Of a stretch of 64,000 bases of DNA, positions 28,260 to 38,898 are shown in pieces (the first letter of the stretch is position 1; the number at the start of each line of letters is the position of its first letter). This DNA comes from Pedobacter duraquae (lineage in GTDB: Bacteria; Bacteroidota; Bacteroidia; Sphingobacteriales; Sphingobacteriaceae), in NCBI RefSeq assembly GCF_004362245.1, contig NZ_SNWM01000002.1, positions 682,001 through 746,000 on the forward strand. The letters run 5' to 3'. Both the position numbers and the translations under genes were made by a program. The notes beneath the pieces are model-generated. The model was not told where the DNA came from, ran no database searches, and saw nothing but the letters and a program-made list of their open reading frames with translations.

Positions 28260-31200
28260 ATGTATAAATTTTACGCTGCATTTCCCTGCAGGTCAAAGCC
28301 GCGTCGCGTGCTGTCAAAACTTTTGCTTACTATGAAACTGATTTGTTTGCTGTTGATTACTACTATTATGCAGGTTTCTGCAGCAGGGTATGCCCAAATG
28401 GTAAATCTCAAAAAAGACAAGGCTTCCATGAAGGAAGTTATAAATGATATCCAACGACAAACAGGCTATAGCTTTATTGTTAGTTCCGAACTGCTTAAAC
28501 TCGCCAAGCCTGTTACCGTTAACTTAACAAACACACCTTTTGAAACTGCACTGGACAAATGCTTTTCCAGTCAGCCTTTAGACTACGTGATCAATGAAAA
28601 AACGATTGTCATCACAAAAAGGATGAATCTTCCAGTTGTTGCACAACAGGAGACTACTGTGAGTGGCAAAGTTACTGATGAAAAAGGCATCCCTATTGCC
28701 GGTGTTAATGTTATAATTAAAGGCAAAGCTGGAGGTACCTCTTCAGATGCCGATGGTAACTATAAAATCAATGGAGTAACTCCAGGGAGCATGTTGGTCT
28801 TTACACAGATCGGCATGGATTCCCAGCAGATTATCATTACCAATCAAACTACGCTAAATGTTATTTTAAAAGAAGCTCCGATGGGCTTAAATGAAGTTGT
28901 CGTGGTGGGTTACGGAACTCAAACGAGAAAAGATATTACTGGAGCAATTACCTCAGTTAAAAACCAGGATCTGCACGAAAGACCAGTGAATAACATTAGT
29001 CAGGCTTTGCAAGGTAAAGCTGCAGGAGTATACGTTTCCACTAATGTAGGTGCAGGAAATGGTAATGAACCGGGTGCAGGCGTTAAGATTTTTATCAGAG
29101 GTAATAGATCAATTCAAGCTTCTAACGAGCCCCTCTATGTAATTGACGGCATACCCATTAATGGTGGTTTAAACGACATAAACCCAGATGACATTATATC
29201 TATTGACATATTAAAGGATGCATCTTCTACGGCTCTATATGGTTCCCGTGGATCCAACGGTGTTGTGATTGTAACTACCAGACGTGGTAAAACCGGTCCG
29301 GCGCAGGTCAATTATAATGCTTATGCTTCTATTGGTGCAATTGCCCGTTACATCGATGTAATGGATGGTAACCAGTTCGCAGAATATAAAAGAGAATCCC
29401 GGAGAGCCAACAATACTTATAATAATGCAGATCCCAATGCAGACAAAAACCTGTTCAATTCAATTGAACTCGCATCAATTGCTAATGGATCTTCTACAGA
29501 CTGGCAGAGACTGTTTCTTCAAAATCAAAAAAGACAAAACCATGAACTGAACATCAATGGTGGCACAGAAACAACCAGATATTCAATTTCTTTTGGTTAT
29601 AATGATGATAAGGGCTACAACCCCGCACAAAGTTTCAGCAGATATTCAACAAGAGTCAACTTAGACCAGGATCTTGGCAAGCGCTTTAAAGTCGGCGTGT
29701 CGCTACTGGCCTCTTACAGCAAAGCAAATAATGCTAACTCTTACTACAACACTTTAATTTCAAATCCTCTTGGTCAGGCTTATGATGCTTCGGGAAATCT
29801 GGTATTTCTCCCGTCAAATGATGCGCTACTTCCAAACCCACTCACAGACTTGGTAGACAAGGCGGTGATTAGCCGAAATACACGCATGCGTATCTTAGGT
29901 AGCTTCTATGGAGAGGCGAAGATTATAGATGGACTGACATTAAGAACAAACTTCGGCCCCGACCTAATTGAAAACAGAGCAGGATCATTCTTCAGCCCAA
30001 ATACAACCTATAGAAATCTCGCACAATCAACGGCCGCAAACAGTGAGGACTTTACGTTAATCTATACTTGGGAAAATATGCTGACCTACAAGAAGACTTT
30101 TGGTAAACATAGAGTTGATCTTACTGGTCTACAAAGTATCACTTCCAGGACGGTTGAAACTACGAGCGCTAATGCCATGGGTCTACCTTTAGAGTCATTC
30201 GAAAATTATAATATTGGTGCCGCAACTACCATCACAGGAATTGGTAGCAACTACAACAAATGGTCTATTCTTTCCTACATGGGAAGGGCAAACTACGCCT
30301 TTAATGATAAGTACCTTGTTACTTTTACGGCAAGAGCTGATGGTTCTTCCCGTTTTGGCAACAATAACAAGTGGGGATTCTTTCCTTCTGCAGCCTTGGG
30401 ATGGAATATCACGAATGAGGATTTCATGAAAAGCGTAACAGCCGTTAATAATCTAAAATTACGTCTAAGTTATGGTACTACTGGAAATACTGGGATTAAC
30501 GCCTACCAGACACAAGGTTTATTGAATCGGACCGTCTATGATTTTGGTGGTACTGATGCATTTGGTTACCGCCCAGGCTCCATTAGAAATGATGACCTGA
30601 AATGGGAATCGACTACAGCTCTCAATGTCGGTCTAGACTACGGGATTCTCGATAATCGCATTACCGGTTCTATCGAGGTCTATACCTCAAAAACTAAAGA
30701 TTTGCTACTATTCAAAGTCCTTCCTGCAACGGGTGGGTTTGACCAGGTTCTTCAAAATATAGGTACAACTAAAAACCGAGGATTGGAATTTGGTATTTCT
30801 ACGCTCAATATCAAACCTGCTGCAGAAAATGGATTCTCTTGGAACACAGATCTCAATTTTGCTATCAGCAAAGAAGAGATTGTTGAACTATCTCAGGGTA
30901 AAATCGATGACGTTGGAAATAATCGTTTCATAGGATCTCCAATAAATGTATTCTACGATTATAAAAAAATTGGGATCTGGCAACTTGGCGAGGAAGCAGA
31001 AGCAGCAAAATACAGTTCATCTGTAGGACAAGTTAAAATTCAGGACACCAATGGTAACGGAAGAATCGACGGTGCAGATCGCGTTATTTTAGGTCAGGAT
31101 CTTCCTAATTTCACCGGCGGTATGACCAACAGATTTGGTTACAAAGGATTCAGCTTATCAGTGCTTGTCCTTGCCAATTTCGGAAATACTTTTGTAAACC

Positions 31201-31568
31201 CGCTTTATTCAGGCAACACCATGGCTTTAGCAGGACGGTACAACAATATCAACGTAAACTACTGGACTAAAACAAACCCGACAAACGATTTCCCGCAACC
31301 TAACGTAGCGAACTCGACACCGACATTTGCCAATGCACTGCGCTATTTTGATGGCTCCTTTGTGAAGATTAAGAACATTAATCTAGGATATCAGTTTTCC
31401 CCAAACATTTCTAAAAAAATAGCTGCAAAATCATTAAGGATTTACGGCAGTGTTTCCGATCCATTTACACTCGCTCCTTACCTATCAGACTTCAATGGTA
31501 CAGATCCTGAGATTCCTGGAAGACCTGCCATCGTAACCTACACCCTCGGTCTAAATGTTACTTTTTAA
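28260..31568 (+). CDS. SusC/RagA-family TonB-dependent transporter with N-terminal STN signalling domain
   Basis: The 1102-residue protein has, in order, an extended signal peptide ending near VSAAGYAQ, an STN domain (about 50-125), a carboxypeptidase-like beta-sandwich (VSGKVTDEKGIPIAGVNV), the LNEVVVVGYG TonB-box region, a plug (ALQGKAAGVYV, YVIDGIPINGG, ILKDASSTALYGSRGSNGVVIVTT) and a 22-strand barrel ending TLGLNVTF. It imports glycan fragments together with SusD. The STN domain fits control by the FecR/ECF pair upstream. Confidence 0.96.
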   Translation: MYKFYAAFPCRSKPRRVLSKLLLTMKLICLLLITTIMQVSAAGYAQMVNLKKDKASMKEVINDIQRQTGYSFIVSSELLKLAKPVTVNLTNTPFETALDKCFSSQPLDYVINEKTIVITKRMNLPVVAQQETTVSGKVTDEKGIPIAGVNVIIKGKAGGTSSDADGNYKINGVTPGSMLVFTQIGMDSQQIIITNQTTLNVILKEAPMGLNEVVVVGYGTQTRKDITGAITSVKNQDLHERPVNNISQALQGKAAGVYVSTNVGAGNGNEPGAGVKIFIRGNRSIQASNEPLYVIDGIPINGGLNDINPDDIISIDILKDASSTALYGSRGSNGVVIVTTRRGKTGPAQVNYNAYASIGAIARYIDVMDGNQFAEYKRESRRANNTYNNADPNADKNLFNSIELASIANGSSTDWQRLFLQNQKRQNHELNINGGTETTRYSISFGYNDDKGYNPAQSFSRYSTRVNLDQDLGKRFKVGVSLLASYSKANNANSYYNTLISNPLGQAYDASGNLVFLPSNDALLPNPLTDLVDKAVISRNTRMRILGSFYGEAKIIDGLTLRTNFGPDLIENRAGSFFSPNTTYRNLAQSTAANSEDFTLIYTWENMLTYKKTFGKHRVDLTGLQSITSRTVETTSANAMGLPLESFENYNIGAATTITGIGSNYNKWSILSYMGRANYAFNDKYLVTFTARADGSSRFGNNNKWGFFPSAALGWNITNEDFMKSVTAVNNLKLRLSYGTTGNTGINAYQTQGLLNRTVYDFGGTDAFGYRPGSIRNDDLKWESTTALNVGLDYGILDNRITGSIEVYTSKTKDLLLFKVLPATGGFDQVLQNIGTTKNRGLEFGISTLNIKPAAENGFSWNTDLNFAISKEEIVELSQGKIDDVGNNRFIGSPINVFYDYKKIGIWQLGEEAEAAKYSSSVGQVKIQDTNGNGRIDGADRVILGQDLPNFTGGMTNRFGYKGFSLSVLVLANFGNTFVNPLYSGNTMALAGRYNNINVNYWTKTNPTNDFPQPNVANSTPTFANALRYFDGSFVKIKNINLGYQFSPNISKKIAAKSLRIYGSVSDPFTLAPYLSDFNGTDPEIPGRPAIVTYTLGLNVTF

Positions 31569-31578
31569 TCAATCAACC

Positions 31579-33222
31579 ATGAAAAGAATTTATTTCACCA
31601 TATTAATATCAACCATTGTGTTGCTAGGCGCTTGTAAAAAAGAACTGGTTGAAGACAGCCGTTCTGAAGTAACAGATAACTACATCAGCACACCCGATGG
31701 TATTCAGGCAGCCGTTAATGCTGCTTATAGTTTACAGAGAGCGTATTGGGGTACTGAGCTTGGCGCTAATCTTAGCGTTACAGGCACGGATGAATACACC
31801 GCCGGATCTGATGCCGACAGAGATTTCAATGCCTATAATGCAAATCTGAACCCTGTAAAGGGAAACTTTACAACAGCATGGACCAATTTCTATCAAGGTA
31901 TCAATGCCTGTAATGCAGTCATCAACAGGGCGCCCGATGTGACTATGGATGCAACGTTAAAAACAACGCGTGTTGCCGAAGCCCGATTTTTACGAGCGCA
32001 GTTTTATTTCATGCTTGTGCAAATGTGGGGTCCTGTACATATCACTTTAACGGAAACCAAAGGCGCAGTAACAACCGCAAAACGCTCGCCCGTTGCTGAG
32101 GTTTATAAAGTTATCACCGACGATCTGGATTATGCGATCACTAACCTGCCTACAACAACAGCAAACTATGGCAGGGCCATCAAACCTGCAGCGCAGCATT
32201 TAGCAGCTAAAGTATACTTAACAAAGGCTGGTATCACAAACGACCAGGCAGATTATACCAAAGCAGCAGATCTGGCAAAAGCAGTAATTACAGGATACAG
32301 TTATAAATTATTAGACAACTTTGCTGATATATTTGCGCAAGGTGCCGGAGAAAGAAATACAGAGACCATTTATTCCGTGCAATACAGCAACAACCTGCTA
32401 ACGAACGGTGATGGAAATACCTTGCACTTATATTTCATCTTCAACTATGACTTGCAACCGGGCATGCAACGCGACCTTGCAGGTGGCAGGCCTTACAAAA
32501 GATATAAACCAACGGCTTTTACTTTAAACACTTTATATAACCACCAAACGGATGGTCGTTTCGATGCCACTTTTAAACGCACTTATTTCTGTAACAAAGC
32601 AGGAACTTACACCATCAACGGCCACGCAGTAAACATGAAACTCGGCGATACCGCGGTGTTCTTCCCAGATGTTGAGCTTACTGCAGCACAGATTGCCACC
32701 AAAAACTATTCCGTATACCCGCCAAGTAAAGTAACTGAAGCCTTATATCCAACCTTAACAAAATACCTGGATCCAACCCGTACAGACGCCAATGCCACTT
32801 CCGGTGCACGCGATTTCATCCTCTACCGCCTGGGAGAAACCTATCTCATCGCTGCCGAAGCATTGCTGATGAGTGGAAAACCTGATGAAGCGCTCACCTA
32901 TATCAATACGTTAAGAAGAAGAGCGGCAAAAAAAGGTATCACAGATGCAGCTACAGCATTGAACAAAACGGCTATGGAAGTGACTAGCGCGCAGCTTAAT
33001 CTGGATTTTATCCTTGATGAACGTGCCCGCGAACTTAATGGAGAGCATCAACGCTGGTTTGACCTGGTACGCACCAAACAGCTGGTTAACCGTGTAAAAT
33101 TGTATAACTCATTGGGTGCACCAAATGTTAAAGACATCCATATGCTTCGTCCGATTCCACAAACGCAGATCGACAGAACAGATGGCGGCGCCTCAGCATT
33201 TCCGCAAAATCCAGGTTACTAA
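31579..33222 (+). CDS. SusD/RagB-family glycan-binding outer-membrane lipoprotein
   Basis: A lipoprotein signal (VLLGACKKE, Cys15) is followed by the helical SusD N-terminal domain (AEARFLRAQFYFMLVQMWGPV), TPR-like helices and the C-terminal SusD block (RLGETYLIAAEALLMSGKPDEALTYINTLRRRA, DERARELNGEHQRWFDLVRTKQL). About 547 residues. It forms the lid over the SusC barrel and binds the glycan. The gene follows susC within 11 bases; the ATG at 31579 is fixed by the lipoprotein signal. Confidence 0.96.
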   Translation: MKRIYFTILISTIVLLGACKKELVEDSRSEVTDNYISTPDGIQAAVNAAYSLQRAYWGTELGANLSVTGTDEYTAGSDADRDFNAYNANLNPVKGNFTTAWTNFYQGINACNAVINRAPDVTMDATLKTTRVAEARFLRAQFYFMLVQMWGPVHITLTETKGAVTTAKRSPVAEVYKVITDDLDYAITNLPTTTANYGRAIKPAAQHLAAKVYLTKAGITNDQADYTKAADLAKAVITGYSYKLLDNFADIFAQGAGERNTETIYSVQYSNNLLTNGDGNTLHLYFIFNYDLQPGMQRDLAGGRPYKRYKPTAFTLNTLYNHQTDGRFDATFKRTYFCNKAGTYTINGHAVNMKLGDTAVFFPDVELTAAQIATKNYSVYPPSKVTEALYPTLTKYLDPTRTDANATSGARDFILYRLGETYLIAAEALLMSGKPDEALTYINTLRRRAAKKGITDAATALNKTAMEVTSAQLNLDFILDERARELNGEHQRWFDLVRTKQLVNRVKLYNSLGAPNVKDIHMLRPIPQTQIDRTDGGASAFPQNPGY

Positions 33223-33231
33223 CACAACAAG

Positions 33232-35325
33232 ATGAAAAAATATGGCATAATCGTGCTCCTGTTCCTAACGGGACAGGCAGCACTTTGCATCCCTAAACCA
33301 GAGTTCGCCTTCAGCGGATCATCACAGATTTATATCCATCCTGTTCTGCAAGAGGATGCCGCAGTACAGGATGCTTTGCAGGATCTCAAAACAGCTGTTA
33401 GTCAAAGAAGTCGACAAACACCGGCAATCAAGTCATTGCTCAGTGGCACTACTTTTTCAGCAAACGCAGTGCTTATCGATACCGCAAACTGGACTGTACC
33501 AAACCAAACAGAAACATACCTGCTGGAAAAGCAAATCAGGAATGGAAAAAACGTTTTGCTCGTTAAAGCCGGCAGCCTGCGCGCCGTTTGTTACGCCATT
33601 TACTATATCACTGAACAATTCAAACTGGGCGAAAAAACTTTAATTAAAGGATCCAAACTGTTAAAAACCCCTGATTTTAAATTCAGGATGATCACCCAGC
33701 CATTTGAAGTTACGGGATTTGCAGCAGTGGCTTCTACTGCAAAACCCATTATCCGTGAGCGTCAATTTGATCCTATGCGTCCCTTTGACGGTGCAGGTTA
33801 TGCACCTATGGATGAGGCGCGCAATATTCTGCGCTCCGGCATGAATACCTTATATATAGGCAGCTACAGCTTTGCCAGCACTTATGCTGGCCTTTCCGAC
33901 TCGATCTTCCCGCCTAACACAGCGGGAAGAACATGGGTCGAAGCACGCCGCACAAAATTCAGGGAACTTATCGCCGCCGCCGAGAAATACCACCTGCAGG
34001 TTTGTGTAAACAGCGATATATTTGCATATCCCAAAACTGTACAGCACAAGGATCGTTACAAAGCACTCAACGCCTCACTGAATGAGATCCTTACCGATTT
34101 CCCGGAAATAGATGTCGTAATAGGCCGCTTCGGCGAGAACTATTCCTACTTCAATCCTTATTTTACAGGTAAAGGACCTGCTTCAGAAACAGAACTTGCA
34201 GCAGTGATAGATTCTATTCAGGCTATCGTAGTCAAAAAGTACCACAAAACGTTCATTCCCAGAACCTGGTCGCTAGGCAATGATGCCTGGCATGCAGATC
34301 CCGCCTTATACACAAAAATCACAGCAGAAATCAAGGCTGATACCGGCACCATATTTTCTGTTAAAAATACGCAGACTGATTTCTGGAGGTACAATAAGTT
34401 CAACCCAACGCTCGGCAAGGGCACCAAAAAACAAGCTATAGAATACCTGGCTCAGGACGGCTACCACTTTAAGTCGTCCATCCCGAACTATGAAGTTATA
34501 CGTATGGCTCGTGGAAGTAAGGAAATTGATAAAGGCCCCGCCGGCATGAAAGCTGCCAAGGCAATGGGAATAGAATATACCTGGGGCTGGCTCAGTGCCG
34601 ACGGCTGGTGTGGCCCCTACCTCAAACGCGAAGAATGGCTTATGGCGAATATCTTCGGCTATACCCACCTGATGTGGGATAGCAAGGAAACACCCGAATC
34701 ACTCGCGGCAAAATGGGCATCACTTGCTTTCAATGTACCAATAAAATCAAAAGCTGCAACCACTATTACCGGGATCCTGATGGAATCTGAAGACATGATT
34801 CTTAAGGCATGTTACTTTAACGGTTACAGTGCTACACATGACGGCTGGCTTCCGGCACTCAACTGGGAACGAGATGATGTACTCGGCGGCGGAACAAAGT
34901 CGCATAAAAACCTGGATTGCCAGTTTTCTTTTGGCCCTGGAACGATCAAAGCATTATTCAGTAAAGCGACATTCGCTCAGGATTGCGCAGACAAAAAGCA
35001 GGCATGGGAACTCGCAAAAAAAATGCTGCGTGATTACGACCTGATTAAAGCTACCCTTCCCGATCAGAAACAAGCAACAGAAGTACGCAGTACCCTGGTA
35101 TCTGCCGAATATCTGACAGGTGTGATTTACCACTATATCAGCGGGATGTTCAGTTATTATAATGGCGACAACGCCGCAGCAAAAAAACACCTGCTGGAAT
35201 GGAGAACAACCTGGAAAACATACAACGAAAAAGTTTCGGCCCTACCCGGTGCTCCTACACCAATGGTGAACGGCGGCATGGTAGAAACGAGTGAAGAAAC
35301 ATTAAAAGAATTAGCTAATCAATAA
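33232..35325 (+). CDS. secreted GH67/GH20-like putative glycoside hydrolase, family unassigned
   Basis: A signal peptide (KKYGIIVLLFLTGQAALC) leads to an N-terminal alpha/beta domain of the kind found in GH67 and GH20 enzymes (VKAGSLRAVCYAIYYITEQFKLG, about 112-134). A barrel-like domain of about 300 residues follows, with GRFGENYSYFNPYF, RTWSLGNDAWHADP and EYTWGWLSADGWCGPYLKREEW, then a helical C-terminal part. The order suggests an alpha-glucuronidase-like hydrolase, but catalytic residues cannot be named safely. It lies between susD and the GH92 fusion with spacings of 9 and 3 bases, so it almost certainly acts on the same glycan. Confidence 0.6.
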   Translation: MKKYGIIVLLFLTGQAALCIPKPEFAFSGSSQIYIHPVLQEDAAVQDALQDLKTAVSQRSRQTPAIKSLLSGTTFSANAVLIDTANWTVPNQTETYLLEKQIRNGKNVLLVKAGSLRAVCYAIYYITEQFKLGEKTLIKGSKLLKTPDFKFRMITQPFEVTGFAAVASTAKPIIRERQFDPMRPFDGAGYAPMDEARNILRSGMNTLYIGSYSFASTYAGLSDSIFPPNTAGRTWVEARRTKFRELIAAAEKYHLQVCVNSDIFAYPKTVQHKDRYKALNASLNEILTDFPEIDVVIGRFGENYSYFNPYFTGKGPASETELAAVIDSIQAIVVKKYHKTFIPRTWSLGNDAWHADPALYTKITAEIKADTGTIFSVKNTQTDFWRYNKFNPTLGKGTKKQAIEYLAQDGYHFKSSIPNYEVIRMARGSKEIDKGPAGMKAAKAMGIEYTWGWLSADGWCGPYLKREEWLMANIFGYTHLMWDSKETPESLAAKWASLAFNVPIKSKAATTITGILMESEDMILKACYFNGYSATHDGWLPALNWERDDVLGGGTKSHKNLDCQFSFGPGTIKALFSKATFAQDCADKKQAWELAKKMLRDYDLIKATLPDQKQATEVRSTLVSAEYLTGVIYHYISGMFSYYNGDNAAAKKHLLEWRTTWKTYNEKVSALPGAPTPMVNGGMVETSEETLKELANQ

Positions 35326-35328
35326 GAT

Positions 35329-38300
35329 ATGAAAAGAAGAAAAATCTATACCATCATGGTCATGCTTACGATCATAGTGGGTTGGCAGAATATCAGCTTT
35401 GCACAGGGAAACCTGAAATATGTTAATCCATTTATCGGCACTGAAGCTACAGGACACACCTATCCCGGCGCCACGGTGCCCTTCGGCATGGTGCAACTCA
35501 GTCCTGAGACAGGAAATTACAACTGGGCCTACTGCTCAGGTTATCGTTATACAGATAAGGAAATCCATGGTTTCTCTCATACCCACTTAAATGGAACTGG
35601 TGCTATGGATCTGGGTGATATTCTCATTTTCCCCTATCAGACACTGGCTGATAAGGGCTATAAAAGTGGATTCTCCAAGAGCAGTGAAAAAGCTTCTCCC
35701 GGCTTCTATGAGGTAACACTTAATGCCGACAATATTAAAGCCGAACTTACCGCAGCAGCGCATACCGGCGTGCATCGGTACACTTTTAATAAGTCAGGCT
35801 CCGCCTACCTGCTCGTTGATCTTCAACATGGCCTGGTCGACAAAGAAAAAGACCTCGCTGGCAGAGTATTGGAAAGTAAGGTGAATATTGAAAACAAAAC
35901 AACAATCACAGGCTACATCCGCTCAAAACGTTGGGTAGATAAAAAGATATTTTTTGTCCTTCAGACGACAAAATCGTTTACCACTGCAAGCTTTGCTGAT
36001 GGAGAACGGAAACGGCAGATCGTAATAAACTTTCCATCCACTAAAGGTGCTAGCATAGAGATGAAAATTGCCATTTCTTCGGTAAGCATTGAGGGAGCCA
36101 GAAAAAATCTAACAGAGACTACAGGCAAAAATTTTGATGCTGTACGTGCCGAGGCCGAAAAAACCTGGACTACCTACCTCAATAAAATGGCTATTGAGGG
36201 AAATGACGCACAAAAGCAGAATTTCTACACCAGTATGTACCACCTGGCTATACAACCCAATAACATCGCTGATATCGATGGTAAATACCGCGCTCAGGAC
36301 GACAAGATCTATACCTCACCCACTAAAACGTACTTCTCTACATTCTCACTTTGGGACACCTACCGCGCAGCGCATCCCATGTACACGATTTTAATGCCAG
36401 AACGGGCCGGGCAGATGGTTCAATCTATGATCGGACATTTTAATGCCGCTGGTACCCTGCCTGTGTGGACGCTGTTTGGCAAAGAAACCTGGACGATGAT
36501 CGGAAACCATGCCGTACCGGTTATTGCCGATGCAATGCTGAAGAACATTAAGGGATTTGACTATGAAAAAGCGTATCAGGCTGTTAAAACAACGCTGACT
36601 AACAACGGTAATCCAAAATACGACTGGTCGATCCTCAACAAGTATGGTTATCTGCCTGCCGACCTTGTAAAAATAGAATCTGTATCGAGAACGCTGGAAG
36701 CGGCATTTGACGACTGGTGTGCCGCACAAATGGCTAAAAAACTGAATAAAACATCCGATTACGGTTTCTTTATCAAGCGCGCAGGGGCTTATGCCAATGT
36801 ATTTGATCAAAAATCAGGATTGATGCGTGGCAAAAAATCTGACGGCAGCTGGGTGAATCCTTTTGATCCTTTAAAAATCTCACATGCCGAGTCAAGTGGT
36901 GGCGACTTTACTGAGGGAAATGCCTGGCAATATACCTGGCATGTTCAGCAGGACGTACCGGGATTGATTAGACTAATGGGTGGAGAAAAAGCATTTACCA
37001 ATAAACTGGACTCCTTATTCAACATGGATTCTAAAATAACCGGCGATGGCTCCACGCTTGACGTTACCGGACTGATCGGCCAATACGCACATGGCAACGA
37101 ACCGAGTCACCATATCACCTACTTGTACACATTAGCTGGCGAACCCTGGAAAACCCAGGAACTGATTCCTAAAATTCTGAAGGAACAGTACAAAAATGCA
37201 CCCGACGGACTGAGTGGGAATGATGATTGCGGACAGATGAGTGCCTGGTACTTATTCAGCACCCTAGGATTCTACCCTGTTAACCCGGCAGAAGGTAAAT
37301 ATGTATTTGGTGCTCCCGCCTTTAAAAAGGCCGTAATCAATCTGGAGGGTGGTAAAACCTTTACGGTCGAAGCCCCGGAGGTATCCACAAAAAATATTTA
37401 CGTTCAGAAAATTGAACTGAATGGCAAACCTTACTATGGCAATACCATTAATCATTCGGAGATCATGGCTGGCGGCAGACTTGTTTTCACTATGGGATCA
37501 AAACCCGCTGCTTTAATGCAGGTGGGATTAAAAAAAAAAGTTAACGACAAACTAGGTACCTGCACCCATTTTGCACAGGGCTGGAACTATGAAAACATCA
37601 TGCCTATGATCGCTGATGCCGGTCTCGGCTGGATCAGGGACGATTTGAACTGGAATGACGTAGAAAAGCAAAAAGGCGTCTACGTTATTCCTGCTCAAAC
37701 GTTGAAATGGATCAAAGCAGCACATGCACATAACTTAAAACTGATTCTCTTGCTTAATCGCGGTAATTCCTTATATAGTAATCCCTACGATCCCGAAGCC
37801 TATGCGCAGTTCTCGGCCGCCATGGCCAAGCAGCTCAAGGGCGATGTGGATGTCTTTGAAATGCAGAATGAACCTGCAAATTTTGGCTATACCAAATATT
37901 ACGGCGGACACTGGAACGGGATAGATGCTAGTGGCAAGCAGGAAGCATGGGTAACGAACTACGTGACACTGCTGAATAAAGCTGCAAAAGCCATCAAAGC
38001 CGTAGACCCGACAGTAAAAGTAATAGGTCTGGGCTCGGTGGCTCCGGTTAATTTCCGACAGTTGCAGGCAGGCATTGCTCCTGAGGTTGACGGCTTAACA
38101 GACCACCCCTATAGCTACAGAACGGTACCCGAAATCATTCCCTATAGCGGCTCTGCAGGAATCCTGAAAAGAGATGGAATTGCCACGGCAGACGATAAAG
38201 GAACCTTTAGTTCTCAGATAGAAATGTACCGGGCGCAGTCTGCGAAATATAACGGCCCTAAGGAAATCTGGCTTACAGAATTCGGGTACTCTGTTTTTCA

Positions 38301-38898
38301 ACCGGCTAAAAAAACGTTGTTTGCCGGTTTCACCGAAAATGCACAGGCCAAGTATTTACAACGCAGGTTGATGATGGGCTTGGGAATGGACATTACCAGG
38401 TTAATGCAGTACGACTTTAAAGACGACGGCAAAGACCCCTACGAACCTGAACACCACTTCGGCCTGGTTGATCCGGAACTAAATCCTAAGGTGGCTTACA
38501 ACGCTGTTAAAAGACTGGCTGAAACAACTGCCGATTTCATTTCGGACCCATCCATTAACGTGTCGGTGTTTCCCGTGGCAGACCGGCCAGATACCTATCC
38601 CATCATATGGGACCAATCCATGCTGGCGGCGCCAGGTACCATCCCGGTTTATACATTCAAAGATCGACTGAACCAAACGGTTATTGCAATCTGGTCGGCA
38701 GAACGTGCCGACGGCGATTTCAGCACCAGACTTGCCAATTTAACAATAGACGCTGGAAATAAGCCGGTAAAATCCATGACTATGACCGACCTGATGACCG
38801 GTACAAGCCAGGAGCTGGAATTCACTACAAAACAAGGTAAGCTGAATATTGATAATATGAACATCCCTGATTACCCGGTACTGATCTATCTCAAATAA
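35329..38898 (+). CDS. fusion enzyme: GH92 alpha-mannosidase plus clan GH-A glycoside hydrolase
   Basis: After a signal peptide (to about residue 25), residues 28-734 form a full GH92 exo-alpha-mannosidase: YVNPFIGTEATGHTYPGATVPFGMVQLSPET, GFSHTHLNGTG and GNDDCGQMSAWYLFSTLGFYPVNP. Residues about 740-1189 form a TIM-barrel glycosidase of clan GH-A (GH39/GH5-like), with acid/base E848 in EMQNEP and nucleophile E984 in WLTEFGYS, then a small beta domain. GH92 needs calcium and removes alpha-mannose from N-glycans or mannans. The second half could cut the backbone. The join lies in an A10 run (37530-37539); one extra A gives TAA two codons later, one fewer gives TAG soon after. Confidence 0.88.
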   Translation: MKRRKIYTIMVMLTIIVGWQNISFAQGNLKYVNPFIGTEATGHTYPGATVPFGMVQLSPETGNYNWAYCSGYRYTDKEIHGFSHTHLNGTGAMDLGDILIFPYQTLADKGYKSGFSKSSEKASPGFYEVTLNADNIKAELTAAAHTGVHRYTFNKSGSAYLLVDLQHGLVDKEKDLAGRVLESKVNIENKTTITGYIRSKRWVDKKIFFVLQTTKSFTTASFADGERKRQIVINFPSTKGASIEMKIAISSVSIEGARKNLTETTGKNFDAVRAEAEKTWTTYLNKMAIEGNDAQKQNFYTSMYHLAIQPNNIADIDGKYRAQDDKIYTSPTKTYFSTFSLWDTYRAAHPMYTILMPERAGQMVQSMIGHFNAAGTLPVWTLFGKETWTMIGNHAVPVIADAMLKNIKGFDYEKAYQAVKTTLTNNGNPKYDWSILNKYGYLPADLVKIESVSRTLEAAFDDWCAAQMAKKLNKTSDYGFFIKRAGAYANVFDQKSGLMRGKKSDGSWVNPFDPLKISHAESSGGDFTEGNAWQYTWHVQQDVPGLIRLMGGEKAFTNKLDSLFNMDSKITGDGSTLDVTGLIGQYAHGNEPSHHITYLYTLAGEPWKTQELIPKILKEQYKNAPDGLSGNDDCGQMSAWYLFSTLGFYPVNPAEGKYVFGAPAFKKAVINLEGGKTFTVEAPEVSTKNIYVQKIELNGKPYYGNTINHSEIMAGGRLVFTMGSKPAALMQVGLKKKVNDKLGTCTHFAQGWNYENIMPMIADAGLGWIRDDLNWNDVEKQKGVYVIPAQTLKWIKAAHAHNLKLILLLNRGNSLYSNPYDPEAYAQFSAAMAKQLKGDVDVFEMQNEPANFGYTKYYGGHWNGIDASGKQEAWVTNYVTLLNKAAKAIKAVDPTVKVIGLGSVAPVNFRQLQAGIAPEVDGLTDHPYSYRTVPEIIPYSGSAGILKRDGIATADDKGTFSSQIEMYRAQSAKYNGPKEIWLTEFGYSVFQPAKKTLFAGFTENAQAKYLQRRLMMGLGMDITRLMQYDFKDDGKDPYEPEHHFGLVDPELNPKVAYNAVKRLAETTADFISDPSINVSVFPVADRPDTYPIIWDQSMLAAPGTIPVYTFKDRLNQTVIAIWSAERADGDFSTRLANLTIDAGNKPVKSMTMTDLMTGTSQELEFTTKQGKLNIDNMNIPDYPVLIYLK

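Follow-up and report, generated by a model that had tools for sequence, protein, structure and literature searches.

Likely slippage at a ten-adenine run in the interdomain linker of a two-domain glycosidase gene of Pedobacter duraquae

Introduction

Slippage of RNA polymerase at a run of nine A is established for the dnaX gene of Thermus thermophilus, where it yields gamma (PMC5009743), and for two-ORF dnaX genes with ten A, found by GeneTack, PMC3711429 proposes polymerase realignment. A related arrangement appears in the legend to Fig. 18 of PMC5009743, according to which a stem-loop beside the slippery site of Roseiflexus IS630 stimulates RNA polymerase slippage. The efficiency of slippage varies with organism and context (PMC1088944), and the same source reads the avoidance of A runs as a sign that slippage during transcription or replication is selected against. 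Slippage of the dnaX style is already known, as is the non-programmed slippage at A/T runs described in PMC6260861, a side effect of homopolymers in coding regions of the kind that we propose here from sequence.

Here, we analyzed a 64,000-nucleotide stretch of the Pedobacter duraquae genome (the window; contig NZ_SNWM01000002.1, positions 682,001 to 746,000), in which a run of ten A joins the two halves of a fused glycosidase gene. This run differs from the described systems in several respects. Slippage in T. thermophilus dnaX has been proven by experiment, whereas the fusion run lacks conservation, is predicted to slip, and lies in a gene for a secreted sugar enzyme. The two-ORF dnaX genes, as described in PMC3711429, have the ten A in common with it; there the slip is needed for tau, whereas here the unslipped message gives the long form. 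In Roseiflexus IS630, as in the fusion gene, a hairpin is found just upstream of the slippery run. However, judged by that figure legend, the IS630 site is T5C5 and its slip is needed for the transposase, whereas the run here is A10, for which a stimulator would be unneeded, and its hairpin is not clearly beyond chance.

Results

A fused glycosidase ends a SusC/SusD operon

The gene stands last in a SusC/SusD operon on the forward strand that is predicted to serve polysaccharide use. It is preceded by genes for a SusC-like TonB-dependent transporter (28260-31568; TIGR04056, E 2.7e-249), a SusD-like lipoprotein (31555-33222) and a 697-aa protein (33232-35325) with weak similarity to the GH67 C-terminus, below the curated cut-off. 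The 697-aa protein is kept in the two relatives with a homologous fusion (G422 and G085, below) and possibly represents an undescribed glycosidase group.

The fusion itself (35329-38898) is one open frame of 1189 aa (132.5 kDa) with an N-terminal signal peptide, judged by eye, and joins a GH92 enzyme of the alpha-mannosidase type to a GH39/PslG-like glycosidase. The GH92 part (35419-37500) comprises the Pfam 92N domain at residues 31-250 and the GH92 catalytic domain at residues 256-724, and it is complete (236/236 profile positions, E 4.2e-69, and 464/464, E 6.5e-177, respectively). The second domain starts at about residue 740 (37540-38895) and was recognized from sequence matches and a predicted model. 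Its conserved block GTCTHF starts at residue 743, and its catalytic glutamates, E848 (NEP) and E984 (LTEFGY), are invariant in all five aligned homologues. By sequence the domain matches PslG and the GH39 enzyme 5jvk, and the solved folds closest to its predicted model (mean pLDDT 77) were PslG (E 1e-21) followed by Bacteroides cellulosilyticus GH39. These two proteins (PDB 5bx9 and 5jvk) have the fold and catalytic glutamates in common with the second domain; they are only 20-21% identical to it, and here the domain is fused to GH92. A Pfam search of the domain returned only weak GH5 and GH44 matches and none to GH39, even at E 10. We call it GH39-like only, a predicted clan GH-A barrel nearest to GH39/PslG. 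A model of the full-length 1189-aa protein had a mean pLDDT of 40.

Single-base slips at the run leave a complete GH92 protein

The ten A occupy positions 37530-37539, in the codons for Leu734 to Lys737 of the interdomain linker (TTA AAA AAA AAA at 37528-37539, then GTT AAC GAC). A first-pass annotation of the window had placed ten A between GH92 and a second glycosidase, which holds, with the Pfam GH92 match ending at residue 724. It had also foreseen an AGT-TAA stop after the gain of one A, a TAG soon after the loss of one, and products of about 80 and 130 kDa, and our translations agree. With one A added, the GTTAAC that follows the run (37540-37545) is read as AGT TAA, giving ...LKKKS-stop (738 aa, 82.1 kDa); with one A lost, KLTTN is followed by the TAG at 37553-37555, giving ...LKKKLTTN-stop (741 aa, 82.5 kDa). 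Both slips retain all of GH92 and remove the second domain entirely. The site accordingly has two features of the dnaX type, an A/T homopolymer of at least nine in coding sequence and alternative frames whose predicted short products stop at the border between the domains. The early stops in both frames are in themselves unremarkable: 3% of coding positions close both frames as tightly, and 29% do so within ten codons or fewer.

The dnaX gene and the scarcity of long A runs indicate slippage in this organism

The same cells carry a built-in positive control in their own dnaX gene, identified from sequence (G000:C3:650983-652806, reverse strand), which has ten A at the gamma/tau junction (L028/L078). 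Within the genus, the site was exactly A10 in 30/30 loci read, in an otherwise variable linker. Across the class, the site could be placed in 94 loci, and 93 of these have A9-A11; 12 further loci remained unplaced. Moreover, at 15 loci gamma is the zero-frame product and tau is reachable only by a slip, 14 of them needing one extra A and one (L165) the loss of one; at one of the 14 (L170), no stop was met before the read stretch ended. Without slippage at the run, such a pattern would be difficult to account for. The breadth of A9-A11 at dnaX in the class may deserve reporting, although the kind is known from Thermus and PMC3711429. As a separate observation, the zero-frame dnaX product swaps within one family (L164 and L166-L172 versus L165), most two-ORF cases calling for an additional A and L165, with A11, for one fewer.

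Long A runs are also avoided in the genome. Coding statistics covered about 0.70 Mb of the genome in 547-551 genes, every ORF of 200 aa or more being counted as a gene. In this part, a run of at least ten A was seen once in coding sequence versus about 8.5 expected from synonymous shuffles, the one being the fusion linker run. Lys-Lys-Lys was written as all-AAA at 3 of 54 sites versus 17.9 expected (P about 1e-6), roughly a sixth of what codon usage predicts. The whole genome (5.29 Mb) holds 16 runs of at least ten A, the dnaX run among them; about four of the 16 are located well within genes that look convincing. For a second in-gene A10, in an anti-sigma-like gene (L032), the site was read in 19 relatives and proved not to be conserved, although two of them have an A10 a few codons downstream. 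The run looks adventitious, and chance A10s therefore occur in this genome. Another A10 (L015; own genome, C1 56632-56641) lies close to the C-terminal end of what resembles a small lipoprotein gene, one with few relatives.

Taken together, slippage on A10 in P. duraquae appears well supported, if indirectly, and from the dnaX run of the same length and the genome-wide avoidance of A runs we infer that the A10 of the fusion gene should slip.

Fused relatives lack the A run

Relatives of the fusion gene were sought in 145 genomes of the genus, 400 of the family, 400 of the order and 395 of the phylum, and in two contig scans. This search returned two fused relatives (G422 and G085), a genome with separate genes (G157), a remnant in G365 and a distant Coprobacter homologue, and nothing closer; each species compared is represented by one genome. 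In G422, of the same genus (JAATFQ), the same four genes stand in the same order and end in a 1225-aa fusion. In G085, of another genus (JAATFW), the fusion linker is exactly as long as that of P. duraquae. Both are about 70% identical to the P. duraquae fusion, and 66-69% over the second domain. In G157 (JAQBOG), the GH92 and GH39-like genes are separate neighbours; the GH39-like protein has a signal peptide, and the stand-alone GH92 protein ends in MGPEPKNNK, near the predicted slippage end of the fusion.

An A run is absent from all three linkers of the fused relatives (one from G422 and two copies from G085). Among the genomes compared, the A10 run thus appears particular to the P. duraquae lineage. 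The metagenome-derived G085 holds two copies or strain variants of the fusion (L006 and L007), each ended by a contig end.

Discussion

The run is probably a tolerated source of slipped transcripts

Slippage at the fusion A10 is likely, whereas selection for it is unproven. We put the probability at roughly 60% that the run is a site of slippage tolerated as a by-product, and not a conserved, selected switch. According to this explanation, an unconstrained linker would have picked up ten A in the P. duraquae lineage. Runs this long most likely cause RNA polymerase to slip in the family, as the organism's own dnaX indicates, and part of the transcripts would carry 9, 11 or more A. Translation of the slipped transcripts would yield, in addition to the 132-kDa fusion, a secreted protein of about 82 kDa that consists of GH92 only. 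Since GH92 needs no second domain to be complete, the loss would be mild and the run tolerated, and an interdomain linker would be the place where an A run costs least. That the run is tolerated rather than selected is suggested by the linkers of G422 and G085, which lack it, and by the non-conserved A10 of L032. Slippage at this site, its rate and its neutrality are what we infer from these comparisons. Of the slippage switch proposed in the first-pass annotation, slipping on A10 in this organism stands, indirectly, on dnaX and the avoidance of A runs, whereas the switch is left unsupported by the absence of the run from both fused relatives; counting A in related genomes, the check that the annotation had suggested, uncovered no conserved site. 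The gene offers a clear case for testing how frequently runs prone to slippage persist because they lie between independent domains, a position in which slipping does little harm.

A selected switch is less probable

The A10 and the two early stops, perhaps aided by a hairpin, could instead form a selected (programmed) slippage switch of the dnaX type that sets a useful ratio of GH92-only protein to fusion, which we consider unlikely but worth weighing against tolerated slippage. Run length and frame closure are the same as at dnaX, the cut would fall near the natural end of stand-alone GH92 proteins such as that of G157, and the run persists in a genome that strongly avoids A10 in genes, so that its retention may mean use. 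At about 70% identity, moreover, the two fused relatives are too distant to exclude a recently selected site. Should cells make the short form and benefit from it, one gene would supply two forms of a polysaccharide utilization enzyme with no second promoter or start. These points are weakened by the A-free linkers of the other fusions and by the L032 run, which shows that an A10 can sit in a gene of this genome and not be conserved.

The hairpin bears on the same question. It comprises 8 bp with one bulge (37504-37526, forward strand), and 3 nt separate its end from the A run; a hairpin placed in this way is reported to stimulate RNA polymerase slippage at another type of site (PMC5009743). 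Its predicted stability (-12.1 kcal/mol, z -3.0) was reached by 0.18% of coding 30-mers and by none of 200 shuffles. However, among the synonymous codings for this peptide 7.4% equalled it, and despite the strong shuffle result we dropped the hairpin as decisive evidence. As other runs of at least eight A in the genome showed no enrichment for such hairpins, it was likewise dropped as a general feature of these runs, and the organism's own dnaX site is without one. A more specific version, in which a dnaX-like switch with the hairpin as stimulator was newly recruited in this one lineage to govern the ratio of GH92 mannosidase to GH92-GH39-like protein from a PUL gene, seems slightly more doubtful again.

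Silence, ribosomal shifting and assembly error

It is rather improbable that the run is silent in practice, with slippage too rare to matter and the fusion as the sole product. The dependence of slippage efficiency on organism and context (PMC1088944) would allow for this, but dnaX in this lineage appears to rely on runs this long, and the genome avoids them.

Very unlikely is a shift by the ribosome in place of the polymerase. The heptamer A_AAA_AAA occurs in frame twice (37530-37536 and 37533-37539), and a -1 frameshift on it, stopping at the TAA, would give a product identical to that of one added A, LKKKS-stop. However, the RNA 3' of the run has no unusually stable fold (z +0.8 and +0.3) and so no downstream frameshift stimulator, unlike the cassette of the E. 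coli dnaX type. In addition, dnaX in the lineage keeps A9-A11, beyond what a heptamer needs, which would fit a 9-10 bp RNA:DNA hybrid better. Because the full run length is preserved and downstream structure is missing, we favour the polymerase as the slipping machine.

Least credible of all is an assembly error (9 or 11 A and two genes) or a run length that varies in the DNA between cells (phase variation), for although homopolymers are prone to error in sequencing and replication and G157 has two separate genes, homologous fusions in a congeneric species and in another genus, one with the same linker length, rule out a false fusion and indicate that the fusion is genuine and the ten-A frame correct. 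The second part is furthermore intact, conserved and equipped with its catalytic glutamates, yet it has neither its own start nor its own signal peptide, a point that the first-pass annotation had raised against an assembly error and that the homologous fusions now make firm.

The distribution of fused and separate forms suggests at least one event in this group that joined or split the GH92 and GH39-like genes. In a further genome of the genus (G365:C1:1322429-1322881; L009/L004), the GH39-like domain persists as a lone, decayed 3' remnant of about 150 aa.
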